NCBI RefSeq assembly: GCF_013127955.1
Contig: NZ_CP053435.1
Coordinates: forward strand, 3,943,001-4,007,000
Length of the DNA stretch: 64,000 bases
Direction: 5' to 3'
From: Spirosoma taeanense
GTDB lineage: Bacteria > Bacteroidota > Bacteroidia > Cytophagales > Spirosomataceae
This document shows, one piece after another, positions 14,087 through 34,977 of the stretch. Positions within the stretch are counted from its first letter, which is position 1. Every line of letters begins with the position of its first letter. A model generated the notes under the pieces. That model made no database searches. It saw nothing but the letters and a program-made list of their open reading frames with translations, and was not told the DNA's origin. Made by a program: the position numbers and the translations under genes.

Positions 14087-15409
14087 TTACGTTAGCTGAT
14101 CCATCGTTACGATTTTGGGCTTACGGGTCAGCAGGTGGATAATTGTCCAGGCAACCAGATACGTACAGCCGCAGACGGTGAACAGCACGTTATAGCCCCC
14201 CGACAGATTCCCGGCGGCTTTGTAGCTATCAAGCAGGCTCCCCACCAGAATCGGGAACAGAATCCCCCCGACGGCTCCGGCCATACCCGCAATCCCCACG
14301 GCGGAGCTGACGGCCTTTTTGGGAAACAGGTCGGATGCTAACGTAAACACGTTCGTTGCCCAGGCCTGGTGTACGGCCACCGCCAGACTAATCAAGCCCA
14401 CTGCCACCCAGACATCGGTCGCGAACTGCGCCAGAATGATTGACAGCTCCAGGCCCGCGAAGGCAATGAGCACTGTTTTCCGCGCTTTGAGCGTTGGCCA
14501 GCCCCGCTTAATCAGCCAGGACGACAGATACCCTCCGCCGATGCTGCCCACCGTAGTCGCCGTGTAAATCAGCATCAGTTCGAGGCTCGGCTTTTTCAGA
14601 TCGAGCTGAAACGTAGAGGAGAAATAGGACGGCAGCCAGAACAGGAAAAACCAGTAAATCGGGTCAATCAGTCCCTTGCCCGTAATGAGCGCCCAGGTCT
14701 GCGGCAACGTAAAGAGCTTCACCCACTTCACGGACTCAGTTTCTTCGGTTTTCGACTCCTGTCCGCTGATGATATACTCGTATTCCTCGCGGCTCAGGCG
14801 TTTCTGCCGGGCCGGAACATCATAGAAAATCAGCCAGAAAACTAACCAGATGAAACCGATCGCGCCGGTAATCCAGAACACTTCCTGCCAGCCGTAATGA
14901 TTCAGAATCCAGGGCACGACCAGCAACGCCACGACCACGCCAATGCTCGTTCCGGCGTTGAAGAGACCCGTTGCCAGCGCCCGCTCCTTCTGCGGAAACC
15001 ACTCAGCCACTGTCTTGACAGCCGCCGGATAGTTCCCCGCTTCGCCCAGACCCAGCCCAACCCTCGCTACGCCGAAGCCAAACGCGCTCCGGGCCAGAGC
15101 GTGCAGCATCCCGGCCACGCTCCACCAGATAATGGTGATCGAATAGCCCAGTTTCGTGCCGACCTTATCAATGAACCAGCCAAAGACCAGCAGACCCACG
15201 GCATAGGCCGCCGTAAAGGCCATCACGATCCGGGCAAAATCGGTTTCCGTCCAGCGGAATTCAATTTCGAGGATGGGTTTCAGCAGGCCGATGATCTGGC
15301 GGTCGAGGTAGTTGATGGTTGTCGCCGTAAACAACAGCACGACGATGCCCCATCGGTAACCGCTTACGTTCGTGCGGGTCGCGGGCTTGGGAGGTTGAGG
15401 AGTAATCAT
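14087..15409 (-). CDS. MFS sugar-acid transporter (ExuT/anion:cation symporter type)
   Basis: The 440-residue protein has twelve membrane segments and the family signature TTINYLDRQIIGLLKP in the first helix, followed by GWFIDKVGTKLG in the loop between helices 2 and 3. This branch of the major facilitator superfamily imports hexuronates, galactonate and related sugar acids with protons. It is the last gene of the locus, 24 bases after the aldolase gene, and most likely brings a 2-keto-3-deoxy acid or an aldonate through the inner membrane. Confidence 0.87.
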   Translation of the reverse strand: MITPQPPKPATRTNVSGYRWGIVVLLFTATTINYLDRQIIGLLKPILEIEFRWTETDFARIVMAFTAAYAVGLLVFGWFIDKVGTKLGYSITIIWWSVAGMLHALARSAFGFGVARVGLGLGEAGNYPAAVKTVAEWFPQKERALATGLFNAGTSIGVVVALLVVPWILNHYGWQEVFWITGAIGFIWLVFWLIFYDVPARQKRLSREEYEYIISGQESKTEETESVKWVKLFTLPQTWALITGKGLIDPIYWFFLFWLPSYFSSTFQLDLKKPSLELMLIYTATTVGSIGGGYLSSWLIKRGWPTLKARKTVLIAFAGLELSIILAQFATDVWVAVGLISLAVAVHQAWATNVFTLASDLFPKKAVSSAVGIAGMAGAVGGILFPILVGSLLDSYKAAGNLSGGYNVLFTVCGCTYLVAWTIIHLLTRKPKIVTMDQLT

Positions 15410-15433
15410 AGGAGATCGGTTAGGGTCGGTCGC

Positions 15434-16081
15434 TTACGGGTTTAGGTTGGGCAGGCGGCTCAGGAAATCCCGGAAATGGGCGTACAGGCCAGTCCAGTCT
15501 TTAGCGCGGATCAGGTTCCTGTCGAACAGATGGCTGCCTACCCCTACGCCATCGGCACCCGCTTTGAAAAAATGCGCCATAGTATCCAGACTCACCCCGC
15601 CGGTAGGCAGGAGCCGGATCTGGTTCAGGGGACCCTTCAGATCTCGGATGTAGTCGGGGCCGAGAGTCGTGGTCGGAAACACCTTCACCATTGGCGCGCC
15701 CAGCGACCAGACTTTGAACACTTCGGAGGGCGTAAAGGCGCCGGGAAAGATGGGAACGTTCCGCTGCAGGCAGGTGTGGATGACCTTCTCGTCGATGATC
15801 GGCGTAACGATGAACTGCGCTCCGGCCGCCAGCGCGCGCTCCAGATCATCGGGGGTGCAGACCGTACCGGCACCGATGTTCATTCCATCGGCAACGTGCA
15901 TCCGCGCGTACCGGATCAGGTCTTCGGCACCGGGTGTATTCATCGTAATTTCAATGGTCGTCAGCCCGGCATCGCGGTACACGGGCAGGATTTGCCGGAC
16001 ATCGGCAACGGACAGGTTCCGGACAATGCCAACGATAGGCGCTCTGGCGAACAGGTTCCAGGAGAATGCGTGCTGGTTCAT
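15434..16081 (-). CDS. dgoA: KDPG/KDPGal-type aldolase
   Basis: The 215-residue protein is a class I aldolase of the Eda/DgoA family. The catalytic glutamate lies in TIEITMNTPG, the phosphate-binding and substrate loops are IGAGTVC and PTGGVS, and the Schiff-base lysine is in MVKVFPTTTLG. It cleaves 2-keto-3-deoxy-6-phospho-sugar acids to pyruvate and glyceraldehyde 3-phosphate. Its start overlaps the stop of the kinase gene in an ATGA junction, so the two are translated together. I prefer the galactonate branch over KDPG because the partner kinase is of the DgoK type. Confidence 0.85.
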   Translation of the reverse strand: MNQHAFSWNLFARAPIVGIVRNLSVADVRQILPVYRDAGLTTIEITMNTPGAEDLIRYARMHVADGMNIGAGTVCTPDDLERALAAGAQFIVTPIIDEKVIHTCLQRNVPIFPGAFTPSEVFKVWSLGAPMVKVFPTTTLGPDYIRDLKGPLNQIRLLPTGGVSLDTMAHFFKAGADGVGVGSHLFDRNLIRAKDWTGLYAHFRDFLSRLPNLNP

Positions 16082-17088
16082 CGGGCAGTTACTTTTAGGG
16101 CCTGGTTCTGAAACAGGATGACCTGCCCCACACCGGCGGCTTTATCAATCAGTTCGGCCGGTACGAAGGTGGTCCGGGCCGACAGCTTCAGTTCGTCAAT
16201 GGCCAGTTTATAGAAAGCGGCTAACCGGCTGCCGCTGCACAGGACCAGGGGCCAGCGTTCTTCGGCCAGCAGATGGTTCAGCTCGGAGCCGATGAGCAAT
16301 CCGCTCAGGAAGAACGCATTCTCGGTTTTGGTGAATTTGCCGAATAGCTGATTCGTTCGAATCGTGAACAGGCCATTCAGGATACCCGTCGAAACCGACT
16401 GATGTACCCCCAGCCGGAACGCCCGAACGTTACCCTCCGAAAAATCGGTCAGGTGCGTCCGATCCACGGAGTCTTTCAGGATACTATGGCTCGCCATCAG
16501 CGCAAACAGCTCCCCGGTCATGTAGGTCGAGAAGCTGATCAGCCGTCCCTCCTGCATATAAATATGCTTGGAGTGAGTACCCGGAAAGATGAAAATGGCC
16601 TCCCGGTTTCCGTCGCCCGACAAGCCAAACAGGGTCACCAGCCCGATGAGCTGCGTTTCTTCGCCCCGCATGACGTCCTTTTCGCTGCGCACGCCGGAAA
16701 TCAGCATGATCTCGTGCGGGAAGTCGGGCTGCGGCTCGAAGTGTCGGACGCTCGACTGGCTGCCATTGACGGCAAAGGGCAGCGTTGCATAGGGCACCTC
16801 GTCCATACCGATGGAAGACGATGCCATACCCGAAATAACGACGGGAATATTGGCTAAGCTGATAGATAACTTCCGGGCCAGGACGTCGATCTGCCGCTTT
16901 AGCTGCTGCCGGAAAAAGTGTTTTTTGGCAATGCCCTTCGTTTCGCCGGTTTTCTGCCAGGCGTCGAACGTATCGGCAATGCCTTCGGGCGAAAACACCT
17001 CCCCGACGCACTGATAATCCGAAAGCTTGAGCAACTGTAATCGAAACAGCGAAGTCCCCCAGTCACAGCACAATAAATAATTCGTCAT
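16078..17088 (-). CDS. dgoK: 2-dehydro-3-deoxygalactonokinase
   Basis: The 336-residue protein has the DgoK family features: the ATP-binding opening LLCCDWGTSLFRLQLL, the block GMASSSIGMDEVPY, and FIFPGTHSKH. It phosphorylates 2-keto-3-deoxygalactonate at C6. I chose the ATG at 17088, because the upstream in-frame ATGs fall inside the end of the PQQ dehydrogenase gene and give a non-family extension. The gene lies 34 bases after that dehydrogenase and overlaps the aldolase gene by four bases. Confidence 0.88.
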   Translation of the reverse strand: MTNYLLCCDWGTSLFRLQLLKLSDYQCVGEVFSPEGIADTFDAWQKTGETKGIAKKHFFRQQLKRQIDVLARKLSISLANIPVVISGMASSSIGMDEVPYATLPFAVNGSQSSVRHFEPQPDFPHEIMLISGVRSEKDVMRGEETQLIGLVTLFGLSGDGNREAIFIFPGTHSKHIYMQEGRLISFSTYMTGELFALMASHSILKDSVDRTHLTDFSEGNVRAFRLGVHQSVSTGILNGLFTIRTNQLFGKFTKTENAFFLSGLLIGSELNHLLAEERWPLVLCSGSRLAAFYKLAIDELKLSARTTFVPAELIDKAAGVGQVILFQNQALKVTAR

Positions 17089-17122
17089 TGAACGTCTGTT
17101 GATACAGTTGAATAGCAGCTTT

Positions 17123-19372
17123 TTATTTACGTAACGCCGATTCGGGCAGCGCAAAGGCGACATATGACCCACCCGGCTTCAGCCCGTAGCGGGTTCCTCC
17201 GGCAGCCAGGGCGATGTACTGCCGACCGTTTACCTGATACGTAATGGGCGTGGCAAAGCCCCCCGCTGGCAGCTTAGATTCCCATATGACCTTACCGGTT
17301 TTCCGGTCAAACGCGCGTAGCTTCTCGTCGTAGGTCGCGGCAATGAAGAGTAGTCCGCCCGCCGTTACGATCGGGCCGCCATGGTTTTCCGTACCGGTGT
17401 TCCGCAGACCTTTGGCAGCCAGCTCCGGGTACTCGCCCAAGGGCACCTGCCAGACGTATTCACCCGTGTTCAGGTTGATGGCGTTCAGCGTTCCCCACGG
17501 TGGTTTGATGGCCGGGTAATTGTCCTGATCGCGGAACTGCGTGTTACCATTGTTCAGGTAGGGCGGCTGGTACGGGAAATCGGCACCTTCGGGCGTCCGG
17601 GTCGTTACCGTCGAATTGTGAATATCTACCGATGCCGACGCCACCGGCTGGGGCTTGGTGTCCAGATGGAGCAGGAAGTCAACAATAGCTTCGCGGTCTT
17701 CTTTGGCAATGTGCTGGAACGACGGCATCCGGCCCCGCCCGCTGGCCAGCAGGCTATGAATCTGCGCTTTATCCAGTCGCTTGCCCACGTCGGTCAGGTC
17801 GGGGTACGCCTGTGCGGTTTTTGTTTCGGGCTTGTCTTTCCCGCTGATGCCATGGCAGACCGAACAGTTGGTGTTGAACAGATACGAGCCCCGCGTCTGG
17901 GCTACGCCTTTACTTTGCACCCGGCTGTCGCGCATCTTCAGCCACCAGAGCATATTGTTGGCATTTACGTAAAAAACCCCCGACGGATCGGCTGCGGTTC
18001 CGCCCCACTCGGCTCCTCCACCAAAGCCGAACACCAGCGACCCTTCCTCATTGGGCAGAACATACTTGCCGCCCTGCTGACTGTTCCGGTAGCGCTCCAG
18101 CACATAGGCCCGCGCTTCGGGCGTGCGGTTGGTGATGGTCGCTTCGCTCAGTTCCTGCAGGGCAAACGGAGCCGGTTTGCTCGGTACGGGCTGCGTCGGC
18201 CAGGGGTGTTCGCCCGGCAGCGCGGGTGCGGTCGGTACGGGCACTTCCTTCACCGGAAAGAGCGGCTTACCCGTATCCCGATCGAACACAAACACGTACC
18301 CATCTTTGGTCGCCTGCGCTACGGCCTCCACCAGCCGGCCATTGTGCCGGACGGTCATCAGGTTGGGCGGACAGGGCAGATCGCGGTCCCAGAGGTCGTG
18401 GTGAACGGTCTGAAAATGCCAGATGCGCTTGCCGGTGGTGGCGTTCAGCGCGATTACGCAGTTGGCAAACAGGTTCTGGCCTTCACGCGCGCCCCCATAA
18501 AAATCAACCGAAGGCGAGCCGGTTCCGGCATAGACCACGCCCCGCTTTTCGTCGATAACCATGCCCGCCCAGCAGTTAGCTCCGCCGAGTTTTTTATATG
18601 CGTCTTTCGACCAGGTTTCGTAGCCATACTCGCCCGGCAGCGGAAAGGTGTGAAACACCCAGGCCAGCTTGCCGGTGCGCACGTTGAACGCCCGGATATA
18701 CCCCGGCGGGGCGTCGCCCCCTTCCGAAACACTGGAGCCCGTAATCAGTAGATCTTTATAGATAACCCCGGGCGTAGTCATCCGAATGGACAGGTTCGCT
18801 ACGTCGTGGCCAAGGGTTTCTTTGTCGCCCAGCCCTTCGTGCAGATCGACTTCGCCGTTTTTGCCGAAGCTGGAAATTGGCTCGCCGGTCTGCGCATTGA
18901 TGGCGTAAAGCGACGAACCGACCGAATACAGGATGCGCTTGTCATCCCCGTCTTCCCAGTACACCACCCCCCGGAGCGGATGGAAGCGGGGCCTCTTCTG
19001 CGGATCGGCGAAGGGGTCGAATTTCCAGCGCTGCTTTCCGGTGGCTGCATCTACGGCGAACAGTTTCATGCGGGGGGTCGTACCGTAAAGGACGCCCTTC
19101 ACCACAATCGGCTGGCACTGAATGTCCATGCCCCGTTCGGCGGGATTGTTGTTCTCGCCCGTATCGAACGACCAGGCTAATTGCAGGTCTTTGACCGTCT
19201 GGGTGTTGATCTGGGTCAGGGGCGAATAGCGATTCCCCGCCGGGTTGCCGCCATACGTCGCCCAGTCCTCATTATTCGGATCATCGTCGCCGGGATTCAG
19301 CTCAGGGGTAAGCCGCATGCCGAAGTTCGGCAGGAGGGCACACGCGAGCAGAAGAAGATAAACTCGTTTCAT
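17123..19372 (-). CDS. PQQ-dependent dehydrogenase with inserted cytochrome c domain
   Basis: The 749-residue protein has a signal peptide and an eight-bladed quinoprotein propeller (WATYGGNPAGNRYSPL at the start). A heme-binding domain is inserted, with C503-x2-C506-H507 and a likely axial Met in GRGRMPSF. After the insert the propeller closes with GGPIVTAGGLLFIAATYD. The protein should oxidise a sugar in the periplasm and pass electrons to its own heme and then to the respiratory chain. The start overlaps the previous gene in an ATGA junction. It resembles membrane-type glucose dehydrogenase without the membrane helices. Confidence 0.88.
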   Translation of the reverse strand: MKRVYLLLLACALLPNFGMRLTPELNPGDDDPNNEDWATYGGNPAGNRYSPLTQINTQTVKDLQLAWSFDTGENNNPAERGMDIQCQPIVVKGVLYGTTPRMKLFAVDAATGKQRWKFDPFADPQKRPRFHPLRGVVYWEDGDDKRILYSVGSSLYAINAQTGEPISSFGKNGEVDLHEGLGDKETLGHDVANLSIRMTTPGVIYKDLLITGSSVSEGGDAPPGYIRAFNVRTGKLAWVFHTFPLPGEYGYETWSKDAYKKLGGANCWAGMVIDEKRGVVYAGTGSPSVDFYGGAREGQNLFANCVIALNATTGKRIWHFQTVHHDLWDRDLPCPPNLMTVRHNGRLVEAVAQATKDGYVFVFDRDTGKPLFPVKEVPVPTAPALPGEHPWPTQPVPSKPAPFALQELSEATITNRTPEARAYVLERYRNSQQGGKYVLPNEEGSLVFGFGGGAEWGGTAADPSGVFYVNANNMLWWLKMRDSRVQSKGVAQTRGSYLFNTNCSVCHGISGKDKPETKTAQAYPDLTDVGKRLDKAQIHSLLASGRGRMPSFQHIAKEDREAIVDFLLHLDTKPQPVASASVDIHNSTVTTRTPEGADFPYQPPYLNNGNTQFRDQDNYPAIKPPWGTLNAINLNTGEYVWQVPLGEYPELAAKGLRNTGTENHGGPIVTAGGLLFIAATYDEKLRAFDRKTGKVIWESKLPAGGFATPITYQVNGRQYIALAAGGTRYGLKPGGSYVAFALPESALRK

Positions 19373-20346
19373 GGAGTGGGGTTCTGGTAAAACGTATAGG
19401 TAATCGTCCACTTCACTTCCTGGCCGGGCTCGGCCCGCAGGTGGATATACGGCTCCGGGCAGGAGGTGGTTGAGCAGGCCCAGAACACCAGCTTTTCCAG
19501 CGGCTGATCGGAAGTGGCCCGCACCCCTGCGCCGGTCTTCAGGTTTTCAATCCGGATGTCGTAGTCGCTGGACGTTGGCCCGAAGCCTTTCAGCCCCGCG
19601 CTGTACACCTGTTCTCCTTTTTTGAGCTCGTCCGAATACATCAGGCTGCTGCCCCGCGCGTGAATGATCGAGCCAAAGCCTTTGCCTTCGGCTTTTACGT
19701 CGAAGGGAAACCGAACAGCGATCTGAGGACCGGTGGGTTCTTTATCAATTACGAAGAAATTGTGGTTATATACGCTGGTTTCGATGAGCTTCTGACCGGT
19801 GTTTTTCAGCCGATGCTCCAGCACGAGTTCGGGCTTGCCTTTGGTCAGCCGAACGGTTTTGGTGTAGTCGTAGCCATAGCCGCCGGCATCGGCCAGTTCG
19901 TGCCGGAATTCAACCCGGTCTTTCCGCGTTTTAACCCGCCATTGGCCATAATCCGCTACGTCGTAGGGCGCGGCAAAGGCATAGGGTTTGTCACTCGCTT
20001 TCCGAAGTGCGCCCACACCGATCTTCACAAACAGATCGCCGGGTTTGGCGTCGGCATAGCCCAGGGGCGTAAACTCCTCTACCGGCCCGTTAATGGCGTC
20101 GTGGGTTTTGGGGTTATAATTCTCAAACCACTGGTCCACATAGCTGTGCCCTTGGTGAGAAAGGCTCTTAAACGCCCCCGACCAGTCGAAGCGGGTGCCT
20201 TGGTAATAGCCCTGCCGGGCATCAGGCAGATACAGGATCGTCTGAATAAGCCCATTGGACAGCTCCGCCTGCGGCCATTCGGCCAGGGGCTGGATGCTGC
20301 CGCATAGGCCCCAGACGACGCTGAGGGCAAGCAGTGTTTTTTTCAA
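19369..20346 (-). CDS. DUF4861-like/galactose mutarotase-like secreted protein
   Basis: The 325-residue protein begins with a signal peptide and looks all-beta. Blocks such as GLIQTILYLPDARQGYYQGTRFDWSG and YNHNFFVIDKEPTG resemble secreted aldose-epimerase-like folds, which bind sugars in a wide beta-sandwich. A role in anomer interconversion or lactone handling beside the PQQ dehydrogenase would fit, and the two genes overlap by four bases. The exact family is uncertain to me. Confidence 0.6.
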   Translation of the reverse strand: MKKTLLALSVVWGLCGSIQPLAEWPQAELSNGLIQTILYLPDARQGYYQGTRFDWSGAFKSLSHQGHSYVDQWFENYNPKTHDAINGPVEEFTPLGYADAKPGDLFVKIGVGALRKASDKPYAFAAPYDVADYGQWRVKTRKDRVEFRHELADAGGYGYDYTKTVRLTKGKPELVLEHRLKNTGQKLIETSVYNHNFFVIDKEPTGPQIAVRFPFDVKAEGKGFGSIIHARGSSLMYSDELKKGEQVYSAGLKGFGPTSSDYDIRIENLKTGAGVRATSDQPLEKLVFWACSTTSCPEPYIHLRAEPGQEVKWTITYTFYQNPTP

Positions 20347-20486: not shown

Positions 20487-21962
20487 TTAATTCAGATTGG
20501 GGTTGATGGACGTATCGATGTAGGGCAGCGGGAACCAGTAGTTGGCCTTGGTGATCGGCTTGATGGGCTGTAGATCTTCGGGGCTCTTTCTGGCGTTCGC
20601 TTCTTCTACTTTTTCGAGCCGGATCAGGTCGAACCAGCGCGTCCGCTCGCAGGCAAATTCCCAGGCTCGCTCCTGCACCACTTCGTCGGCAAACTGAGCG
20701 GCCGTCAGCCCATCGGCGGGCGACAGCGCTTTCGTGCCTGCTGCCCGGCCCCGTAACCGAACCTGATTCAGGGCGTCGTAGGCCGCCTGATCGGGGCCGC
20801 CCGTTCCGCGCGCTTTGGCTTCGGCATAGATGGTCAGTACGTGCGGGTAGCGCATCATGACTGAAGGCAGCGAAATGCTGGAGGTGACGATATTCCCCTT
20901 GATATACCATTTTTTATAGTACGGGTGTTTGGTCAGGCTCTGCTGCCAGGGGATTTTGGTAGCACCCAGCCCAAACTCCGTGCGGAACGTAGCGTCTTTA
21001 CGCGGCCCCGCCGGGAAGTCCCGGAAGAAAAAGAGTTCGGCAAACATATCGTCCCAGCCGCCTTCTTCGCCGGGCATCGTGGTGTTGCCATAGGTCGCGT
21101 TGGCCGTACCGCTGCCGCCCGTAAAGCCGTTGATCTGGAACACCGACTCCGGAATGATCGCCACCGCCGGGTCGTTATCGAACACGGCCGCGAACGTCGG
21201 CAGCAACTGAAAGCCGTAGCGGGCGCTGTTGTCAATGACTTCCTTCGCCTTAGCCGCAGCCAGGTCGTACTTGTCGGTCTGCTTCAGCGGCCAGCCCGCC
21301 ATGGTCAGGTACACATCGGCGAGATACGCCTTTGCCGAACCGGCGTTGGGCCGACCCGGATCGCGTCGGGTGTTGGGCAGCATGGTTTCAGCTTTTTTCA
21401 GATCCGAAACAATCAGGTCATACACCTGGGCGGGCGTTGACTTTTTGATCGTCAGCAAACTGTCGGAATATTCCCCCGACATCACCAGCGGAATGTTGCC
21501 GTAGAACCGCGTCAGCCAGAAGTACGAGAACGCCCGGATGAAGTGTGCTTCGCCCGCAATGATGTCGATGGTCGCTTTTGTACCGGTCGTCTTCTGGTAA
21601 TTATTGATGACGTTGTTGGCGCCCTGAATAGCTTTGTAGCAACCATTGTAGACCGCACCAGACCGCTGATTCGTGGTCGATACGTTGAACTGATCGAATT
21701 CGCGCCAGTCGGCTTTGTTACTGGCCGGGTGGGTCGTTACGTCGTCGGCGCCGATGGTGGCGGCATTGGCCGAAGGATGCAGAAAACCATAGGACCACTG
21801 GGCACCCAGACCCCGGTAAGCGCCCGTCAGCGCCGACTCCAGACCTTCCTGGGTCGAGAGAACGTTCGGGCCATAGAGCAGGCCGGTGGTATCTTCTTCC
21901 AGGTAGCCCTTGCAGCCTGCTCCCAGCACAGCTATGAATGAATATAAGAGTAATTTTTTCAT
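20487..21962 (-). CDS. SusD/RagB-family glycan-binding lipoprotein
   Basis: The 491-residue protein has a lipoprotein signal with the lipobox LGAGC and the family pattern GYLEEDTTG. The tetratricopeptide-rich core contains AIQGANNVINNY and EAHFIRAFSYFWLTRFYGNIPLV, and the C-terminus has the RagB block VVQERAWEFACERTRWFDLIRL. It is held on the outer surface and forms a lid on its SusC partner, which lies 11 bases upstream. The gene uses PF07980-type features, unlike the second SusD of the locus. Confidence 0.93.
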   Translation of the reverse strand: MKKLLLYSFIAVLGAGCKGYLEEDTTGLLYGPNVLSTQEGLESALTGAYRGLGAQWSYGFLHPSANAATIGADDVTTHPASNKADWREFDQFNVSTTNQRSGAVYNGCYKAIQGANNVINNYQKTTGTKATIDIIAGEAHFIRAFSYFWLTRFYGNIPLVMSGEYSDSLLTIKKSTPAQVYDLIVSDLKKAETMLPNTRRDPGRPNAGSAKAYLADVYLTMAGWPLKQTDKYDLAAAKAKEVIDNSARYGFQLLPTFAAVFDNDPAVAIIPESVFQINGFTGGSGTANATYGNTTMPGEEGGWDDMFAELFFFRDFPAGPRKDATFRTEFGLGATKIPWQQSLTKHPYYKKWYIKGNIVTSSISLPSVMMRYPHVLTIYAEAKARGTGGPDQAAYDALNQVRLRGRAAGTKALSPADGLTAAQFADEVVQERAWEFACERTRWFDLIRLEKVEEANARKSPEDLQPIKPITKANYWFPLPYIDTSINPNLN

Positions 21963-26412: not shown

Positions 26413-27768
26413 TCAGGGCCGGATCAGGGTGCCGTCCATTTTCCGCACCTGCCAGTTAGACCTGGTACCGATAGGATACTTGGCGGCTTCTTTTTCGTTG
26501 ATATCCACCCCTAATCCCGGCACTTCGTTGACCGACATATAGCCCTTATTCATAGTTGGGCAACCGCTGAAGACCTCCTGCATTTTATCGGAGAACTGCA
26601 CGGCCTCCTGAATACCGAAGTTCCACACTGCCAGGTCGACGTGTGCATGGGCCGCGTGCCCCACCGGCGAAACGTCGCCCGGCCCGTGCCAGGCAGTGCG
26701 AATGTTGAAGAACTCGCCCAGCCGGGCTATTTTCATGGCCGGCGAGAGACCGCCAATCTGCGAAACATGGCACCGGATAAAATCGAACAGGCGGTTCACC
26801 ATGGGCTCTTTAAACTCGTTAATGTTATTGAATAGCTCACCCATAGCAATAGGCACCGTAGTCGACTGGCGGAGTTGTCGGAACCACTCCATGTTTTCGG
26901 GCGAGAAGGGGTCTTCGATAAAGAAAGGCCGGTACTCTTCCAGTTTCTTAATCATGTTGATGGCTTCCATGGGCTGCACCCGCTCGTGGATGTCGTGAAG
27001 CAGTTCTACCTCGTCGCCACAGGCTTTCCGGACCACCTCAAACATCTTCGGTACCGATTTCAGGTAGAGCGGCACGTTCATGTAATTGTCGGTTTCGCCC
27101 CCAAATCCGGCCGCCTTAAAGTCGGGTTTGTCGGCGGTGGCCCCAACAGCCCCGTACCCGCCCTGCTGAATGCGGATGTGCCGGAACCCACGTTCCATGA
27201 ATTTCTTCACGTCCTCGGCAACGGCTTCGGGCGTGTTTCCATTCGCATGCGTATAGCACGGAATGGCGAAACGGACTTTACCGCCCAGCAACTGATAAAC
27301 CGGCATCCCCGCCCGCTTGCCTTTAATGTCCCAGAGCGCCTGGTCCAGTCCGCTGAGGGCGTTGTTGAGTACGGGGCCGTTTCGCCAGTATGAACTGACA
27401 TACGCGCCATTCCATATATCCTCGATGTTGTCCACATCCTTGCCCACGCAGAAATCATTGAGGTAGGCGTTGATAGCCGTAACCACGGCAACTGCTCGTT
27501 GCGTGAAGGTAGCGCAGCCCAGACCGTAGAGCCCCGGCTCGGTTGTTTCGACTTTCACCACGATCAGGTTCGACCCCTGGGGTGCCGTAGCGATGGCCTT
27601 TACACTCTTGATCTTGACGGGCGCCATGCCTTTTGCATACTGCGGAGTGCCCTGCTGTTCGCGGGCCTCGGCATTGGAAATACCACCAAACAGGCCCAGC
27701 ATTCCGGCCGAAGAGCCGAAGCCCAGCATTTTCAACGTCTCACGACGACTTTGATCAGGTTTATTCAT
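26413..27768 (-). CDS. Tat-exported mannonate dehydratase-type (RspA/ManD) enolase-superfamily protein
   Basis: The 451-residue protein starts with a twin-arginine leader (QSRRETLKMLGFG). I chose the ATG at 27768 because the longer reading begins with non-family sequence. The active site has the ManD features LLHDIHERVQP, FIEDPF, AMGELFNN and WHGPGDVSPVGHAAH. Known members dehydrate mannonate or gluconate to 2-keto-3-deoxygluconate, although many are slow or of unknown role. The gene follows SusD2 by 77 bases and precedes the galactonate dehydratase-like gene by 79. Confidence 0.87.
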   Translation of the reverse strand: MNKPDQSRRETLKMLGFGSSAGMLGLFGGISNAEAREQQGTPQYAKGMAPVKIKSVKAIATAPQGSNLIVVKVETTEPGLYGLGCATFTQRAVAVVTAINAYLNDFCVGKDVDNIEDIWNGAYVSSYWRNGPVLNNALSGLDQALWDIKGKRAGMPVYQLLGGKVRFAIPCYTHANGNTPEAVAEDVKKFMERGFRHIRIQQGGYGAVGATADKPDFKAAGFGGETDNYMNVPLYLKSVPKMFEVVRKACGDEVELLHDIHERVQPMEAINMIKKLEEYRPFFIEDPFSPENMEWFRQLRQSTTVPIAMGELFNNINEFKEPMVNRLFDFIRCHVSQIGGLSPAMKIARLGEFFNIRTAWHGPGDVSPVGHAAHAHVDLAVWNFGIQEAVQFSDKMQEVFSGCPTMNKGYMSVNEVPGLGVDINEKEAAKYPIGTRSNWQVRKMDGTLIRP

Positions 27769-27806
27769 GAGTAAGAAGTAGGTATTTAGGTAAATGATTG
27801 GGGGAT

Positions 27807-27834
27807 GGGTCCCCCCGGTTAACCGGGGAGACCC
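27807..27834 (-). other. GC-rich palindrome between SusD2 and dehydratase genes
   Basis: A perfect 16-bp palindrome (27813-27828) extended by five more pairs after one mismatch (27807-27811 with 27830-27834) lies in the gap after the SusD stop. No T-run follows on the minus strand. It may set the 3' end of the SusCD transcript, leaving lower expression downstream. Confidence 0.45.
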
Positions 27835-27845
27835 GAACACTCGTA

Positions 27846-29381
27846 TTATTTCTTATCCCACCAGACGCGGGTGTCCAGGGTGTTAGGCCCCTGCCGCGAG
27901 ATCGCTTCGTTCAGGCTGCCCGAATTGACGACAATCTCACTGTCTGGATACGGCAAGCGCCGGATAAAGTCGCCCTTCACTTCCGAGCCGGGATAAGGGT
28001 TCTTCTTCAGGGCCGGGTAGCCGCTGCGCCGGAAATTGGCGAAGGCTTCGTTGCCGTCGAGGAAGCTGGCCACCCAGTACTGCGTATTGATCTGCTCCAG
28101 CGCCTTGCTTGTATCCAGCGGGTGGGCATCCAGATAAGCCTTGATACTCGCTTCCGGAATGAGGGAACCATACGCAGCCATCTGCTCCAGATTGGCCCGG
28201 ATACCTTTTGCGTAATAATCAGCCGCCGAGCCGGACACCCAGCCGCGCACGGCGGCTTCGGCCAGCAGCAGCAGCGTCTGCGCATACGTCACGTGAAATT
28301 CGGGTGCGTCGAGCTTGAGTACGGTGTTCAGGTTTACCTGCGAGAAATCCCACAGACTGGCTACGCCGTTCTGCGCCAGCACCGACGTAATGGACACGTC
28401 ATTGTAGCCCATGGGCATGCCGATCTGTACCTTCGGATCGGACGAAGCCCGCGCGGCTACCTGCTCCTGCCCGCCTTTGGCACCGACGTAACGCACGGCA
28501 AAAATGGGCAGCCGGGGGTCGTCGTTTGCCTTGAGGTAATCCACAAAGGGGGCCGCGAGGTAAAAATTGGTTTTCTCCCGGGCCGCTAAGTGGTTGGCGA
28601 TAAAGTTATTATACGTAGACGTATGCCGGAGAATCGAGTTATCGGCGTTGGATTGCAGGACTCCACCCGCTACCGCCTTTTTTACGTAGGCTTCGGCCAT
28701 TGCCGGATCGACTTTCGTCAGGCGCATGCCCGCCCGCAGCATAAAGGAATACCCCAGCTTTTTCCATTTGGCAACGTCGCCCCCGTACAGGATATCGGTA
28801 GTTACCGGAGTCTGCGCGGTCGTCAGAGCTGCCGAGGCCTCATCCAGTTCCTTCAGGATATCTTTATAGATGGCCTGCTGCGGGTCGTATTTGGGCGTAA
28901 TGACCTCCGTGGTATAGCCCTGACCCGCTTCGAAATACGGAATGTCGCCGTAGGTGTCGGTCAGGATCATAAAGACATAGGCTTTCCAGATTCGGGCCGC
29001 GTTATACGTGTTCGACTGCTGCGGATCGGCCTTGGTCTGCTCCAGCACGGCCACCAGTTGCTTGAGCACGTTGCGGTAAAAATTCTGCCAGACCAGGGGC
29101 GTGTTGCTGTTGTTCACCTGATCGTAGTTTGCGCCCGACAGCGAGCTGCCGTAGGGCGTAATGATCTGCTGCACAATCCCGAAGTTGTAGGTCAGCATAC
29201 CCAGTGTACCGAACCCGTCGAGGTAGTTGGTGTTGATAATGGCCTTGTTGAGCACCATCGAAGGAGCCAGATAGGTCGGGTCTACCTTATTGGTGTTCAA
29301 CTCCGTAAAGCCTTTATCGCAACCCGTCAGCAGGCCCAGCGAGAGGCCCAGCGTAAGGGAGTATTTCAAATAGATGTTCAT
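27846..29381 (-). CDS. SusD-family lipoprotein (SusD-like_2 branch)
   Basis: The 511-residue protein has a lipobox (LLTGC) and opens with DKGFTELNTNKVDPTYLAPS, characteristic of the SusD-like_2 branch. The core contains ARIWKAYVFMILTDTYGDIPYFEA and LLLAEAAVRGWVSG, and the end reads TLDTRVWWDKK. It should cap the SusC encoded just upstream (62-base gap). The different subtype from the other SusD suggests that the two pairs import different ligands. Confidence 0.92.
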   Translation of the reverse strand: MNIYLKYSLTLGLSLGLLTGCDKGFTELNTNKVDPTYLAPSMVLNKAIINTNYLDGFGTLGMLTYNFGIVQQIITPYGSSLSGANYDQVNNSNTPLVWQNFYRNVLKQLVAVLEQTKADPQQSNTYNAARIWKAYVFMILTDTYGDIPYFEAGQGYTTEVITPKYDPQQAIYKDILKELDEASAALTTAQTPVTTDILYGGDVAKWKKLGYSFMLRAGMRLTKVDPAMAEAYVKKAVAGGVLQSNADNSILRHTSTYNNFIANHLAAREKTNFYLAAPFVDYLKANDDPRLPIFAVRYVGAKGGQEQVAARASSDPKVQIGMPMGYNDVSITSVLAQNGVASLWDFSQVNLNTVLKLDAPEFHVTYAQTLLLLAEAAVRGWVSGSAADYYAKGIRANLEQMAAYGSLIPEASIKAYLDAHPLDTSKALEQINTQYWVASFLDGNEAFANFRRSGYPALKKNPYPGSEVKGDFIRRLPYPDSEIVVNSGSLNEAISRQGPNTLDTRVWWDKK

Positions 29382-29443
29382 GATCTCGTTTCGGTTTAAA
29401 AGGGTCTTTTTCTGCCGTTGAATTGCCTGACGACAACGGTAAA

Positions 29444-32400
29444 TCAGAAGCGAACGTTGAGGTTGAAGCCGATACTGCGGGTAGGCGGCAGGCCCGGCCA
29501 GAAGTCCAGTCCCACGGCGTTATCCGACGAAACCAGGGCTTCTTCGGGGTCCATGTTCTCGGTCCATTTTTTCAGCACCAGGACGTTGTTGGCAACGGCG
29601 TTCAGGCGCAGTCCTTTGATGAACAGCCGTTCGGGCAGCAGCTTCGTGAAATCATAGCCCAGCGTAACCTGCCGCAGTTTCCAGAAACCGGCGTTGAAGA
29701 CAAAGTCTTCATTGATACCCAGCGGATTCAGGGATTCGTAGTAGGGTTGCACGGCGGCTTTGGTCTTGTTGACCTCCCCGTTCGGGTTTACCCCGTTGCC
29801 AATCACGTAGCCGACATCCCGGCCCGGCAGCGTCCGCTTCGACAGCCCATGCCGCATGTAGTTGATGTTCCGGCCAGCAATCAGTTTGTGCCCCAGCTTG
29901 AAATCAATCAGCGCCGACAGCGATATGCCCCTGAACGTAAACGTGTTGGTAATACCCCCGAAGTAGGTTGGGAGCGCGTTGCCCACGTTTTTCAGCGTGT
30001 TGTTGCGTAGTGGTAGGCCGCTGTTAGCGTCGAATACCTGCCGGCCCTGCGCGTCCCGCATATATGTAAAGGTGTAGAGCTGACCAATGGGTTTGCCTAC
30101 AACCTGGTGCAGGTTCCGACCACCTCCCGAGCTGACCGTGATGACGGTATCGTTTGGCGACAGACCCAGCCGCAGAACTTTCGAGGTGTTGTAGGAAACG
30201 TTGGCGCTCACATCCCAGCGGAACGATTTGGTCATCAGGGGCGAGAAGGTCAGCAGCATCTCAAGGCCCTGGTTCATACTGCGCCCGACGTTAATCAGCT
30301 TGCTGGTGTACGAGGAAGCATCGGAAATCTGAGCAGCCAGAATCTGATCGTCGGTGGTTTTGTGGTAGTAGGTAAAGTCAAAGCCTATTTTGTTGTCGAA
30401 CAGCTTCAGTTCCACCCCTACTTCGGCTTCCTGAATGCGGAGGGGGCGCAGGTTCTTGTTTGGAACGACCGACGCGTTGATACCACCAACGGGGACTAGC
30501 TGCCCCGTCGGGTTCGGGAACGAGTTGTTATCTACCTGGTAATACAGCGCATTGGAATACGGGTTTACATTGTCCGACCCTACCTGCGCGTAGGCCGCCC
30601 GCAACTTACCGAAGGATATCCAGGTCGGTAGTTTTTCGAACGCCTGTGAGAACACAAAGCTACCCGTAACGGATGGGTACAGAATGCTCCGGTTCGAGGG
30701 GGCCAGCGTCGAGAACCAGTCGTTCCGGGCCGTCATGTTCAGAAACAGGTAATCCCGGTACGAAATCGTTGCCGCGCCGAACAGGGAGTTGATTTTCTTC
30801 TCCGACAGGGCGTAAATCGGATTTTTAATTCGCCCGTTGGCTACCGTATACAGACCCGGCACGATAAAATCCTGCACCGTAACGCTGTTGTAGTCGTTGC
30901 GGGCGTAGCGGGCGTTACCGCCTAACGTAATGTCGACGCCAATTTTCCCGAACGTTTTATTACCGCCCAGGAAGAAGTCGATGTTCCGCTCGGTATTCTG
31001 CCGCACGTCCTGCGTGTAGGAACCATTCACGTAGCCCACGGGGGCTCTGGCAATGGGTGCGTAACCGTTGGGAATGTTGTAATCCTGATTCCGGATATAG
31101 TAATCCTGCGCAATCCGGCCCTGCAGATACAGCCAGTCGGTAAACTGATACCGAAGAGCAATGTTGCCGAAAATCCGGTCCCGGTTAATATTCTCGAAGT
31201 GTTTATTCATCGAATAATACGGGTTGTTCCGGACCAGAAAGCGCGAGAACACAAACTCATCGCCATTGGGCAGGGTCTGGTTCTGCTGCAGCGCTTCGAA
31301 GGGCATGGAGTTGGCCAGCGTGAATACCACCGTTGACACCGAAAAATCCTGCGTGTTCAACTGGGGCGGGTTGATGTTGTTCTCCTTCGAATAGTTAATG
31401 TTTCCCGAGGCCGTCAGTTTGCTGGTGATGTTCTGGGTAAAGCCCAGGTTGATCACTTTGCGGTTGAACGTGTTGTTCTGCATGATGCCTTTGTTGTCGG
31501 TGTTCCCGAACGACAGGCTGAACCCACCATTCTGGCCGTTATTTGATACGGTCACGGTATTGGTGAAGTTGGTCCCGACGCGGTAGAACTTCCTGACGCG
31601 GTTAAAGACCGGTTCATACGGCCAGGTTTCGTTGTCGAACAGAACCTGCGTCATGCCCGGCTGGAACTTCTCGCCGAAGCTCCATACGCCCGAGGTCGGG
31701 TTTGGCGTCGTGGGTCGTTTACCACCTTCGCCCTGCCCGTATTCATACTGAAAATCCGTAAAATCGAGCGGGGTATCGGTCGTAAAGTTGGTGTTGTAGG
31801 TTACGCCGAAGCCTTTGCCCGTCCCCCGGTTTTTGGTCGTGATCATCACCACGCCATCTTTGGCGCGGGAGCCATACAGAGCGGCTGCTGTCGCTCCTTT
31901 CAGCACGGTCATGGTTTCAATATCGTCGGGGTTGATGCTGCTCAGGCCGTCGCCACCGTCGGAGCTGTTGGCCGCTCGTGAGCCAAAATCACCACCGAGG
32001 GAGTAGTTGGAGTTGTCGATCGGTACGCCGTTCACTACAATCAGCGGGTTGTTCTGACCGCTGAACGACGACTGCCCACGAATCCGGATTTTAGCGGTTC
32101 CGGCGGGACCCGTACCCATGCTCGTGATATTCACCCCGGCCATTTTGCCCTGCAGTCCGCTCACAAAATTGGGCGTGCGGTTAACGGAAATCTGATCGGC
32201 ATTGACCGTAGCGGTGGCATACCCCAGCGTCTTGGCTTCTTTCCTGATACCCAGCGCGGTCACGATTACCTCGTTGATGTTTTTCGCATCCTCCACCAGC
32301 TGCACGTTAATAATTGAGCGGTTGTTGACCGGCACCGTCTGAGTTACGTAGCTGATGTACGAAAAGACCAGCGAGGCATTCGCCGGCGCGTTAATTGCAT

Positions 32401-32578
32401 AGTTCCCCGACGCATCGGTAGCGGTACCGAGCGTCGTACCGCTGACCACCACGTTCACCCCAGGCAGACCCTGGTTGTCTGGACCGGTTACTTTACCGGT
32501 TACCCGGCTGCTCTGGGCAAAGGCATAACCCTGCCACAGAAACAGGAGGATGAAAAGCACGTTTACAGGTTTTTTCAT
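29444..32578 (-). CDS. SusC/RagA-family TonB-linked outer membrane protein
   Basis: The 1044-residue protein has a signal peptide, a carboxypeptidase-D-like domain, the TonB-box-like INEVIVTALGI, a plug with RIRGQSSFSGQNNPLIVVNG and a barrel ending in SIGFNLNVRF. The sequence EAKTLGYATATV after the TonB box is typical of SusC proteins that pair with SusD-like_2. Its N-terminal domain is nearly the same as that of the other SusC at 24964, while the barrels differ. It is 44 bases downstream of the first dehydratase gene. Confidence 0.95.
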   Translation of the reverse strand: MKKPVNVLFILLFLWQGYAFAQSSRVTGKVTGPDNQGLPGVNVVVSGTTLGTATDASGNYAINAPANASLVFSYISYVTQTVPVNNRSIINVQLVEDAKNINEVIVTALGIRKEAKTLGYATATVNADQISVNRTPNFVSGLQGKMAGVNITSMGTGPAGTAKIRIRGQSSFSGQNNPLIVVNGVPIDNSNYSLGGDFGSRAANSSDGGDGLSSINPDDIETMTVLKGATAAALYGSRAKDGVVMITTKNRGTGKGFGVTYNTNFTTDTPLDFTDFQYEYGQGEGGKRPTTPNPTSGVWSFGEKFQPGMTQVLFDNETWPYEPVFNRVRKFYRVGTNFTNTVTVSNNGQNGGFSLSFGNTDNKGIMQNNTFNRKVINLGFTQNITSKLTASGNINYSKENNINPPQLNTQDFSVSTVVFTLANSMPFEALQQNQTLPNGDEFVFSRFLVRNNPYYSMNKHFENINRDRIFGNIALRYQFTDWLYLQGRIAQDYYIRNQDYNIPNGYAPIARAPVGYVNGSYTQDVRQNTERNIDFFLGGNKTFGKIGVDITLGGNARYARNDYNSVTVQDFIVPGLYTVANGRIKNPIYALSEKKINSLFGAATISYRDYLFLNMTARNDWFSTLAPSNRSILYPSVTGSFVFSQAFEKLPTWISFGKLRAAYAQVGSDNVNPYSNALYYQVDNNSFPNPTGQLVPVGGINASVVPNKNLRPLRIQEAEVGVELKLFDNKIGFDFTYYHKTTDDQILAAQISDASSYTSKLINVGRSMNQGLEMLLTFSPLMTKSFRWDVSANVSYNTSKVLRLGLSPNDTVITVSSGGGRNLHQVVGKPIGQLYTFTYMRDAQGRQVFDANSGLPLRNNTLKNVGNALPTYFGGITNTFTFRGISLSALIDFKLGHKLIAGRNINYMRHGLSKRTLPGRDVGYVIGNGVNPNGEVNKTKAAVQPYYESLNPLGINEDFVFNAGFWKLRQVTLGYDFTKLLPERLFIKGLRLNAVANNVLVLKKWTENMDPEEALVSSDNAVGLDFWPGLPPTRSIGFNLNVRF

Positions 32579-32622
32579 GATTTAGGAATAGTTAAACGTG
32601 ATAGGCACTACAAGCACTGAAC

Positions 32623-33867
32623 TCACCAGTTGTGAATTGCCCCATCTGGGCTTTTCAGAATCGGATGCGGGAATTGCGTATTGGATGCCACTTCCATGAC
32701 GAACGTGGCTTTCTTCGGGTCGAACTTTACGCCCAGGCCGGGTTCGGGATTCAGGTAGAGCTTCCCGTTTTTGAAGTTGACGAGGTCTTCGTTAAAATAG
32801 GCGGGACGTTCGGGTTCGCCCCCGCCCAGCTCCATCAAACAGCGGGTTGGGCTGCTCGAACCCAGCACATGCACCAGCGTAGCCGTAGCCAGCGGCCCCG
32901 TGAAGTGCGGGATCATACCCACGTAATGTGTCTCGCACATGGACGCGATTTTCTTCATTTCGGAGATTCCGCCGGTGTTGGGCAGGGTAACGCGGGTGTA
33001 ATCGATCAGGTGCTGCTCAATAAGGGGGTTAATGTCCCAGCGGTCGCCAAACTGTTCGCCTACGGCAATGGGCACCGTCGTCATCGGCCGCAACGTTTTA
33101 TACACATCCGGATTTTCGGACCGAACGATGTCTTCGACGAAGTATGGCTCGGTCTCTTCGAGCGCCTTGCAGATTTTTAACCCTTCTGTCGTGTCGAAAC
33201 GGGTGTGCAGATCAACGGCCCATTTACCGCCCCCACCTACGGCCGCATCGATTCGTTTGCAGAATTCAATCGTCTTTTTAGCGTTGTCGTAGAAGTCAAA
33301 GGCAACATCGCCGTTGCCCCCGGTTGGGCCAATCCGGTAGGCGCGTAAACCGGCCTCGATGCAGTCCCGGGCACGCTCCTCTTCTGTTTTCGCCTTGGAG
33401 GCCCGGAAACCCGTGGCGTAACATTCGACGTAATCGCGGGTTGCTCCGCCGAGCAGTTCATACACCGGCACGCCCAGGGCCTTGCCTTTGATGTCCCAGA
33501 GCGCCATATCCAGCGCCCCCTGCGCGTGGAGTTTTTCGCGACCCGGCGGGTAGAACATGCCCCGGTACAGATTTTGCCAGATGTGCTCGATCCGGAATGG
33601 ATTCTGCCCAATTATCATCTGGGCGCACTGCTCAATGGTATCTTTGGACCCACCTTCTCCGATGCCGATGATGCCGCCATCCGTTTCGATCTCAACGATG
33701 CCGCGAGCCTGGTTGAACAGGGGTTTGTTGTAGCCCGGCGCGTTGTAATACCGGACTTTGGTAATCTTTAATTTAGGCACGGCGGCCTCTGAATCTGCAA
33801 ATGGAAACCCGGCCATTACGGCGGTTGAGCCAAGTACGGCAGATTTCAGAAAATTTCTTCGTTGCAT
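32623..33867 (-). CDS. Exported enolase-superfamily dehydratase, first gene behind the LacI operator
   Basis: The 414-residue protein begins with a leader of Tat type (MQRRNFLKSAVLGSTAVMAG), starting at the ATG at 33867. The fold is mandelate racemase/muconate lactonizing; the active site reads AVDLHTRF, FVEDIV, AVGEQFGDRW and IPHFTGPLA, which gives the acid-sugar dehydratase set with a catalytic His on each side. It is a paralogue of, but clearly different from, the one at 26333. Substrate is unknown; galactonate, fuconate or related aldonates are all possible. Confidence 0.85.
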   Translation of the reverse strand: MQRRNFLKSAVLGSTAVMAGFPFADSEAAVPKLKITKVRYYNAPGYNKPLFNQARGIVEIETDGGIIGIGEGGSKDTIEQCAQMIIGQNPFRIEHIWQNLYRGMFYPPGREKLHAQGALDMALWDIKGKALGVPVYELLGGATRDYVECYATGFRASKAKTEEERARDCIEAGLRAYRIGPTGGNGDVAFDFYDNAKKTIEFCKRIDAAVGGGGKWAVDLHTRFDTTEGLKICKALEETEPYFVEDIVRSENPDVYKTLRPMTTVPIAVGEQFGDRWDINPLIEQHLIDYTRVTLPNTGGISEMKKIASMCETHYVGMIPHFTGPLATATLVHVLGSSSPTRCLMELGGGEPERPAYFNEDLVNFKNGKLYLNPEPGLGVKFDPKKATFVMEVASNTQFPHPILKSPDGAIHNW

Positions 33868-33890
33868 AAAATTAGGTATAGGGTTCAGAG

Positions 33891-33922
33891 AAGGAGTAAA
33901 TTTGCTTAAACGATTAAGCAAA
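33891..33922 (-). promoter_or_regulatory. LacI-type operator between -33 and -7 like boxes, before the first dehydratase
   Basis: Bases 33901-33909 (TTTGCTTAA) are exactly complementary to 33914-33922 (TTAAGCAAA) around the spacer ACGA. On the minus strand the palindrome is preceded by a TTTG at 33922-33919 and followed after 20 bases by a weak TA box at 33898-33891, so a bound repressor would block the promoter. It lies 34-55 bases before the ATG at 33867. Confidence 0.65.
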
Positions 33923-33939
33923 AGATTAAAAATGATGGT

Positions 33940-34977
33940 CTAACTAACGGCTGCTTTTATTTTTGAGGAATTCCGGGCAATTAATCTGGCTTCCATCCGA
34001 ATCTGCCGGGGTTCGGCCTGTGGGTCTTTCAGTTTGCTCACCAACAGTTCGACGGCTGCTTTGCCCAAGTCTTCCATCGGCTGCTGCAGATAGGTGATTG
34101 GACAGTAATACAGATCAAATGCTTCGGCCTGCCCAAAACTAACAATCGCCAGATCATCCGGCACCTTCAGGCCAAGTTCGTTGATGTATTTCAACCCGCT
34201 GATCGCCAGCCGGTAAGTTGCAAAAATCAAAGCGTCGACGGTGTTGTCTGACGCCAGCATGGCATCGATACCCGCCCGAATCTCTGATTCAATCCGGTTA
34301 AACTCTACCTCGGTCAGCCATTCGGGCCGGAACGTAACCCTGTTCGCCTGCAGGGAATCCAGATAGCCCTGTATCCGCTCCCGCATATGAAACAACTGCG
34401 ACCGGTAGGCAATCATGCCGATGTTTCTGTAGCCGCTTTCGATCAGATGCGTCCCGGCTTCAAAGGAAGCCTTCCGGTTATCCAGCACGACGAAATCCGT
34501 CGGAATCTGGGGAAAGTGACGATCCAGCAGGACAAATGATACGTTTTTACTATTCAGGTATTCAATCTGATCTTCGGAACTCTCCGACGAAACGATGATA
34601 AAGCCGTCAACCTGACGATTCAGCAACACATTGATCAGGTCCCAAGACTTATCGGCATCTTCGTCGGAGCTGCCAATGATGACCGTATAGCCATGTTTTT
34701 TTGCTTCATCTTCCACAATCCGGGCAATGTTCGCAAAAAAAGGGTTAGATATATCTGCAATAATCAACCCGATGGTCTGGGTTTTGCCACTCCGCAGGCT
34801 CTTGGCCAAATAATTCGGCTGGTAGCTTAGTTCACTGGCTATCTGCCGGACTTTTGCCGCAATATCCGGCCCAACCCGGCTTTCCTTCTCTTTCCCGTTT
34901 AGTACGTATGATACCAGCGCCGTTGAAACGCCTGCTTTCTGCGCTATGTCCTTCATTGACACCTTTTTCTTATTCAT
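33940..34977 (-). CDS. LacI-family transcriptional regulator
   Basis: The 345-residue protein has a LacI helix-turn-helix at residues 5-30 (SMKDIAQKAGVSTALVSYVLNG), the hinge YLAKSLRSGKTQTIGL, and a periplasmic-binding-protein-like effector domain (ADISNPFFANIARIVED). The start at 34977 skips six residues of an upstream ATG. Such proteins bind a sugar or sugar acid and control catabolic operons. It is divergent from nothing and leads the thirteen-gene minus-strand locus. Palindromes with a shared core stand before it and after it, which implies self-control and control of the locus. Confidence 0.93.
   Translation of the reverse strand: MNKKKVSMKDIAQKAGVSTALVSYVLNGKEKESRVGPDIAAKVRQIASELSYQPNYLAKSLRSGKTQTIGLIIADISNPFFANIARIVEDEAKKHGYTVIIGSSDEDADKSWDLINVLLNRQVDGFIIVSSESSEDQIEYLNSKNVSFVLLDRHFPQIPTDFVVLDNRKASFEAGTHLIESGYRNIGMIAYRSQLFHMRERIQGYLDSLQANRVTFRPEWLTEVEFNRIESEIRAGIDAMLASDNTVDALIFATYRLAISGLKYINELGLKVPDDLAIVSFGQAEAFDLYYCPITYLQQPMEDLGKAAVELLVSKLKDPQAEPRQIRMEARLIARNSSKIKAAVS

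Follow-up and report, generated by a model that had tools for sequence, protein, structure and literature searches.

Organization of the locus

The window analysed here is a stretch of 64,000 nucleotides of Spirosoma taeanense DNA (contig NZ_CP053435.1, positions 3,943,001 to 4,007,000), in which thirteen genes on the minus strand, read from 34995 to 14087, probably encode a catabolic route for sugar acids, with early steps that would take place in the periplasm and two last ones that would take place in the cytoplasm. An earlier sequence-only reading had listed such a set, with two SusCD pairs, three dehydratases and a carrier, and we confirm both the inventory and its order: Pfam and NCBIfam matches back the labels of the regulator, the three enolase-family proteins, the SusC and SusD proteins, the pyrroloquinoline quinone (PQQ) dehydrogenase with its cytochrome c insert, the kinase, the aldolase and the major facilitator superfamily (MFS) carrier, and the set is conserved in relatives. 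Chance clustering or mis-called open reading frames (ORFs) are ruled out by synteny across several genera. Some ORF calls begin too early, and the likely starts given below were assigned by eye.

All features lie on the minus strand. The gene of a LacI-family regulator (33940–34995; PF00356, PF13377; likely start 34977) has an operator-like palindrome, ATTTAATCGATTAAGC, upstream of it (35054–35069), and a second one, GCTTAATCGTTTAAGC (33904–33919), is found 36 bases ahead of the likely ATG, at 33867, of enoA (32623–33921; PF13378/PF02746). This gene encodes dehydratase A, a predicted exported member of the enolase superfamily with the twin-arginine translocation (Tat) leader MQRRNFLK from 33867. 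There follow the SusC-type TonB-dependent receptor 1 (29444–32578; Plug, CarbopepD_reg_2), which adjoins SusD1 in relatives, SusD lipoprotein 1 of the SusD-like_2 type (27846–29381; PF12771, 288.6 bits), and two further dehydratases with Tat leaders and predicted export, the ManD-related dehydratase B, enoB (26413–27840; likely start 27768), and the galactonate-dehydratase-family enzyme GalD (25086–26333; NF010624, leader SRRSAIQ). The second pair, SusC-type TonB-dependent receptor 2 (21974–24964; TonB_dep_Rec_b-barrel, Plug, CarbopepD_reg_2) and SusD lipoprotein 2 (20487–21962; PF14322, PF07980), is followed by a predicted secreted protein (19369–20346) that is without family assignment and had been called mutarotase-like, a description with which its AlphaFold model and fold matches agree, as both point to a galactose-mutarotase fold. 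The remaining genes encode a PQQ dehydrogenase that resembles glucose dehydrogenase and is predicted to be exported (17123–19411; PF01011, PF13442; likely start 19372), a predicted cytoplasmic 2-keto-3-deoxygalactonate (KDGal) kinase of the DgoK type (16078–17172; PF05035; likely start 17088), an aldolase, also predicted cytoplasmic, of the 2-keto-3-deoxy-6-phosphogluconate (KDPG) or 2-keto-3-deoxy-6-phosphogalactonate (KDPGal) type (15434–16081; PF01081), and an inner-membrane MFS anion carrier related to DgoT (14087–15409; TIGR00893, PF07690).

Dehydratases and their predicted location

Each of the three dehydratases has an N-terminal extension in which twin arginines are combined with a hydrophobic stretch. 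We have analysed this feature in 80 loci fetched with GalD, taking as rows the ORFs with at least 40% identity and more than 70% coverage, and found Tat-like leaders in 76 of the 80 GalD, all 53 enoA and 46 of the 49 enoB ORFs. Neither a Tat-like nor a hydrophobic N-terminus was present in any of the 35 kinases and 36 aldolases, and no Tat-like leader was seen in the 22 MFS carriers; the Tat test was also positive for a single LacI row out of 39, and the background amounts to 32 of 444 unassigned neighbouring ORFs, some of which are probably genuine Tat proteins. The GalD rows come from 79 of the 80 loci, as one in which several genes are split into pieces (L050) gave none. The failing GalD rows comprise one whose contig starts inside the leader (L074), two with a start called away from the true one (L039, L052) and a second copy (46%) in L069 that is a leaderless DgoD, whereas the failing enoB rows (L073, L052, L016) are start-call or truncation errors, as judged by their N-termini. 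On the Segetibacter contig L069, a leaderless and an exported galactonate-dehydratase relative both occur (L069:7108–8256 and 10004–11245), and the two would lend themselves to a comparison of location. The distant dehydratase paralogues over the loci carry a Tat-like leader in 16 of 18 cases, and on contigs of Sphingobacteriales-type and other Bacteroidota (L040, L043, L046, L047, L071) as many as six relatives of the enolase-family dehydratases stand in tandem.

Within the genome (5.72 Mb, two contigs), which encodes TatC, eight enolase homologues were found, and of all proteins GalD alone, predicted to be exported, exceeds the cut-off for galactonate dehydratase. Five of the eight have twin-arginine leaders and a dehydratase as best NCBIfam model in each case. 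A cytoplasmic galactonate dehydratase elsewhere in the genome was considered and rejected, none being over the cut-off and the three leaderless homologues better matching epimerase/racemase or o-succinylbenzoate synthase models. A class-wide search at E 1e-95 returned 3 of 149 genomes, that of the window and two others with leaderless DgoD best hits, a threshold so strict that this count is a poor guide to the frequency of the exported form. A tree of 34 rows was built from 25 GalD sequences of 24 chosen loci among the 80 and from 9 further sequences. In it the leaderless DgoDs, from E. coli and from three genomes of Bacteroidota, form a group of their own, with a support of 92/86 that falls slightly short of the 95/80 mark of the tool, and the exported forms, which represent several phyla, lie outside it; because the branches of enoA, enoB and several paralogues are very long, only this grouping was used. 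By contig label, the exported relatives belong to Bacteroidota, Planctomycetota, Acidobacteriota, Verrucomicrobiota and Omnitrophota, those outside Bacteroidota being mostly metagenome bins.

Regarding family, GalD passes the NCBI galactonate dehydratase model NF010624 (440 bits, cut-off 311), being 47% identical (171/364) to E. coli DgoD and 93% identical to GalD of Spirosoma profusum. The other two are more distant: enoB reaches 401.4 bits against the ManD model, below the cut-off of 550, and matches PDB 4ihc at 471.6 bits, while enoA passes the cut-off of no model, the best being again galactonate dehydratase (208.5 bits, cut-off 311). The residues D183, H185, E209, E235, H285 and E310 of DgoD, which we take to be active-site positions, are identical in GalD, enoA and enoB, and because these six are kept all three enzymes look catalytically competent. 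Among the positions checked, GalD departs from E. coli DgoD at 46, 146, 147 and 260.

The sequence-only reading had placed dehydration in the periplasm and the completion of the route in the cytoplasm. Since Tat-like leaders are found on the three dehydratases and on neither the kinase nor the aldolase, this compartment split is supported by prediction, to which the presence of TatC and the fact that the only galactonate-dehydratase-grade protein is a predicted exported one contribute; oxidation as an integral first step is less well supported.

Sugar oxidation and PQQ supply

The PQQ dehydrogenase had been described as carrying its own heme, which agrees with the PF01011 and PF13442 matches and with a CxxCH motif kept in 29 of 29 relatives. 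The protein is 37% identical (241/654) to the E. coli membrane glucose dehydrogenase Gcd. It has an inserted cytochrome c domain and no membrane domain, the N-terminal domain of Gcd being without counterpart in the alignment. In agreement, its match to TIGR03074, the model of membrane-bound glucose/quinate/shikimate PQQ dehydrogenases (469.5 bits, under the cut-off of 832.65), has its best stretch from profile position 149. Residues R266, W404, D466 and K493, in a Gcd numbering and with roles that we presume to be correct, are shared with Gcd and conserved in all 29 dehydrogenases, and D327 in 26; of the 12 Gcd positions checked, 201, 262, 326, 354, 424 and 494 differ and 607 is poorly aligned. 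No Tat motif is present, and a hydrophobic N-terminus is found in 29 of 29 dehydrogenases, as well as in 14 of 15 relatives of the mutarotase-fold protein by the same lax test.

Concerning the cofactor, no PqqC match was found in the genome of the window or in any of 23 genomes overall (control pSymB, 428 bits), and no PqqE over the cut-off of 381 in 16 genomes (control 609.8 bits), 15 of which gave weak matches of at most 67.3 bits; PqqA, B, D and F were not searched. These missing matches suggest that the host does not make PQQ itself, and the dehydrogenase probably uses scavenged PQQ. A comparable situation is outlined in a 2025 study (PMC12124388), in which PqqU is reported for 206 Bacteroidota that all lack PQQ biosynthesis genes, mainly from aquatic isolates, and according to which members without PqqU may synthesise the cofactor or depend on its diffusion; the likeness to scavenging through PqqU lies in the PqqC and PqqE matches that are missing here too. 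Two more PQQ_2-bearing proteins are encoded in the genome (C1:1779474–1781354 and C1:5171387–5173192), though it appears unable to make the cofactor.

Lower pathway, carrier and substrate

The kinase belongs to PF05035 (194.5 bits, cut-off 25), has no NCBIfam match and is 32% identical to E. coli DgoK. The aldolase, also 32% identical to its E. coli counterpart, passes the eda model TIGR01182 (177.7 bits, cut-off 156.05) and stays below the DgoA model PRK09140 (146.3 bits, cut-off 207). Thus, of the proposed pair of KDGal kinase and KDPGal aldolase, the kinase family stands, whereas KDPGal specificity is less well supported, the aldolase being nearer to KDPG aldolases. For the MFS carrier the nearest PDB entry is DgoT 6e9n (152 bits). 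The carrier shares 29% of its residues with the E. coli DgoT protein, and its Y-x-D-R and E-A residues align with those of DgoT.

Galactose, which had been among the suggested substrates, is less well supported. A PQQ dehydrogenase is present, and no lactonase family is found among the 13 genes with Pfam and NCBIfam. An SMP-30 lactonase in the neighbourhood of an exported GalD on a single Pedosphaera contig (L087) was considered as a candidate and is too little to build on. A galactokinase is present in the genome and a TIGR00209-type GalT was not found in it (the control was positive in 5 of 14 genomes and negative in the Bacteroides one), so that a non-Leloir galactose route could be useful to this organism. 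An incomplete galactose route without GalT is described for the Bacteroidetes isolate HL-49 in PMC5507952, which assigns the De Ley-Doudoroff pathway to Rhodobacteriaceae and Halomonas genomes.

Conservation of the gene set and its regulation

Co-occurrence was counted over the 52 loci with a length of 21 kb or more, leaving out 28 shorter ones. A kinase and/or aldolase gene is present in 35 of the 52, of which 28 also carry the PQQ gene, and the latter never occurs without the former (0/52); the seven exceptions among the kinase/aldolase loci are six from Larkinella and one from Adhaeribacter (L053). In the short loci, which contig ends may cut, the PQQ gene is seen without kinase or aldolase in L021, L023, L038 and L055, and the kinase and/or aldolase without the PQQ gene in L064, L065 and L084. 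Since the PQQ gene is missing from loci that keep the rest, the acid-sugar route appears to be the core and the oxidation module an addition. PQQ-linked oxidation, proposed as part of the pathway, is retained as its usual companion, and the six Larkinella loci and the Adhaeribacter one do without it. Two features of the wider set are worth recording. A sulfatase-like gene cluster, one member of which is Pfam-confirmed, is present in 15 of the 80 loci (L012, L028 and 13 others, including Larkinella and Cyclobacterium), hinting at sulfated sugar sources. At a Catalimonadaceae locus (L045:15775–18084), a TIM-barrel protein and an Nramp-type transporter are found where the aldolase and MFS genes usually sit; the structure alignment took in one row from L045, 17% identical, that is DUF4380.

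The palindromes upstream of the LacI gene and of enoA are both near GYTTAAWCGWTTAARC. The motif was first spotted in 14 loci and then counted in all 80, with TTAANCGNTTAA sites being present in 39 of 39 loci with a LacI gene, 25 of them new, to a total of 87 sites against 1.25 expected in shuffles; the 41 loci without a LacI gene have 6 sites. The next assigned plus-strand gene after the 87 sites is SusC1 in 37 cases, enoA in 26, LacI in 16 and GalD in 8, at a distance of at most 150 bases for 49 sites and at most 600 for 86. In the window itself, allowing one mismatch, 3 matches are found against 0.39 expected from dinucleotide shuffles, and 2 of 100 shuffles gave as many. A stricter pattern occurs at four places in the genome, namely two at the locus, one by a paralogous LacI gene, directly upstream of its likely start (C1:2812556–2812567), and one in a respiratory-looking cluster that may be due to chance. 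As the palindrome is found in every locus with a LacI gene, its conservation favours joint regulation of the set, with LacI as the protein that would bind it. Elsewhere in the window, the gene at 9034–11613 encodes a large protein in which leucine-rich repeats precede a Ras-like GTPase region, Roco-like when judged by eye.

Proposed route and alternatives

Gene content, leader-like N-termini, active-site residues, synteny, palindrome conservation and the lack of PqqC/PqqE matches are all read from the sequence, and it is from such features that we infer enzyme location, substrate, carrier cargo, electron flow and dependence on scavenged PQQ. In the route that we consider probable, the SusCD pairs would carry a sugar or its acid over the outer membrane and, in most kinase-bearing relatives, the PQQ dehydrogenase with its own heme would oxidise the aldose to an aldonolactone or aldonate. 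The Tat-exported enolase-family dehydratases would then convert aldonates into 2-keto-3-deoxy acids in the periplasm, the DgoT-like carrier would move these over the inner membrane, and the KDGal-type kinase and KDPG/KDPGal-type aldolase would complete the route in the cytoplasm, the gene set being controlled by the LacI regulator through its conserved operator. A more specific form of this reading, to which we lean only slightly, is a widespread outside-in De Ley-Doudoroff route, in which oxidation with a borrowed cofactor and dehydration are both periplasmic and only the 2-keto-3-deoxy acid crosses the inner membrane. Since the exported relatives stand apart from leaderless DgoDs and occur in several phyla, external acid-sugar dehydration may be a general strategy.

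A number of observations weigh against these proposals. Leaders were recognised by a twin-arginine search and hydropathy, not by SignalP, and the test for a hydrophobic N-terminus is lax, as 30 of 39 LacI regulators pass it. Leaderless DgoDs of the same class score 675–693 bits, and because the 440 bits of GalD are well under this its substrate may have shifted. Among solved structures the aldolase is nearer to KDPG aldolases (131 bits for 1vlw, presumably the T. maritima enzyme, versus 95 for DgoA), and the MFS protein reaches only 245.5 bits against TIGR00893, under the cut-off of 395, and could move aldonate instead of the 2-keto-3-deoxy acid. The missing lactonase family belongs here as well. 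Finally, an exported GalD without kinase or aldolase nearby is found in 17 of the 52 long loci, enoA being present in 12 and enoB in 12, and L038 and L055 (∼14.6 kb) carry the PQQ gene without kinase or aldolase within the stretch examined.

The same compartment split would serve equally if the natural substrate were an aldonic acid (or glycoside) imported as such, with the PQQ dehydrogenase, SusCD2 and the mutarotase-fold gene forming an optional module that extends the diet to the parent sugar. To this we give a substantial chance, somewhat short of even, as the six Larkinella loci keep LacI, enoA, SusCD1, GalD, DgoK, Eda and MFS in the absence of all three parts of that module, the Adhaeribacter locus also lacks the PQQ gene, and two Spirosoma loci (L013, L016) and a Runella one (L017) have no SusCD2; yet oxidation is usual, considering the 28 of 35 long kinase/aldolase loci with the PQQ gene, the Larkinella genomes having been searched for a PQQ dehydrogenase within the locus only. 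It is rather doubtful that the layout serves sugars of a different series (such as L-arabinose, D-fucose, or gluco- or manno-configured acids), with three dehydratases for different epimers. The aldolase affinity, the ManD relationship of enoB, the failure of enoA to pass any model and the four departures of GalD from E. coli DgoD would fit such a series, but GalD is over the cut-off for galactonate dehydratase, the kinase belongs to the KDGal family and the carrier is nearest to DgoT.

A classical cytoplasmic dgo pathway, in which the leaders would be non-functional and the MFS carrier would import galactonate, seems to us improbable. The enzymes of E. coli dgo are cytoplasmic, its dehydratase, aldolase, kinase and carrier genes adjoin, and the carrier found here is homologous to DgoT, with which its Y-x-D-R and E-A residues align; against this, twin-arginine leaders are kept across deep divergence in three separate dehydratases while missing from kinase and aldolase, and the leaderless DgoDs group apart from the exported enzymes. 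We attach just as little weight to the idea that the quinoprotein and dehydratases act on the reducing ends of imported oligosaccharides and not on monosaccharides. SusCD pairs usually import oligosaccharides and a sulfatase-like cluster accompanies some loci, but neither a glycoside hydrolase nor a lyase is seen among the 13 proteins with Pfam and NCBIfam, and enolase-family acid-sugar dehydratases use free acids.

Relation to known systems and significance

The proposed route with periplasmic dehydration shares with the lower part of the De Ley-Doudoroff pathway, as encoded by E. coli dgoRKADT, the dehydratase, KDGal kinase, aldolase and DgoT-like carrier, with identities of 47, 32, 32 and 29%, respectively. 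It differs in having three dehydratases with Tat-like leaders, which places dehydration outside by prediction, as well as outer-membrane SusCD import, a LacI-family regulator in place of DgoR, oxidation by an exported quinohemoprotein and an aldolase nearer to KDPG aldolases. Sugar-acid dehydration is regarded as a cytoplasmic step, and the textbook pathway dehydrates inside the cell. The De Ley-Doudoroff enzyme set, as given in PMC6927180, matches that of the locus.

Pseudomonads, after periplasmic glucose oxidation by enzymes of the Gcd type, import the aldonate or 2-keto acid, whereas here the periplasmic chemistry is predicted to continue to dehydration. The dehydratase of the quinate route of acetic acid bacteria is periplasmic. 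That route, according to PMC9171043, leads from quinate to 3-dehydroquinate by an NAD(P)-independent quinate dehydrogenase and then by a dehydratase to 3-dehydroshikimate; it is alike in the succession of oxidation and dehydration and differs in substrate and enzyme families. SusCD polysaccharide utilisation loci resemble the present one in the two SusC/SusD pairs and the local regulator, and differ from it in their glycoside hydrolases or lyases. The sequence-only reading knew of no described locus with this compartment split, and our literature search (full texts, with few subscription journals covered) agrees, no description of exported acid-sugar dehydratases or of this gene arrangement being among the matches listed. 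We thus appear to be dealing with known enzymes in a new placement, conserved and probably co-regulated.

If dehydration does take place in the periplasm, the task of import becomes a different one: several sugars and epimers could depend on one carrier for the 2-keto-3-deoxy acid that they have in common, and oxidation would supply the respiratory chain with electrons without the sugar having to be imported. The carbon use of these bacteria would then be tied to PQQ from their neighbours, and a function would be suggested for other Tat-leader "mandelate racemase" proteins in Bacteroidota and other phyla.

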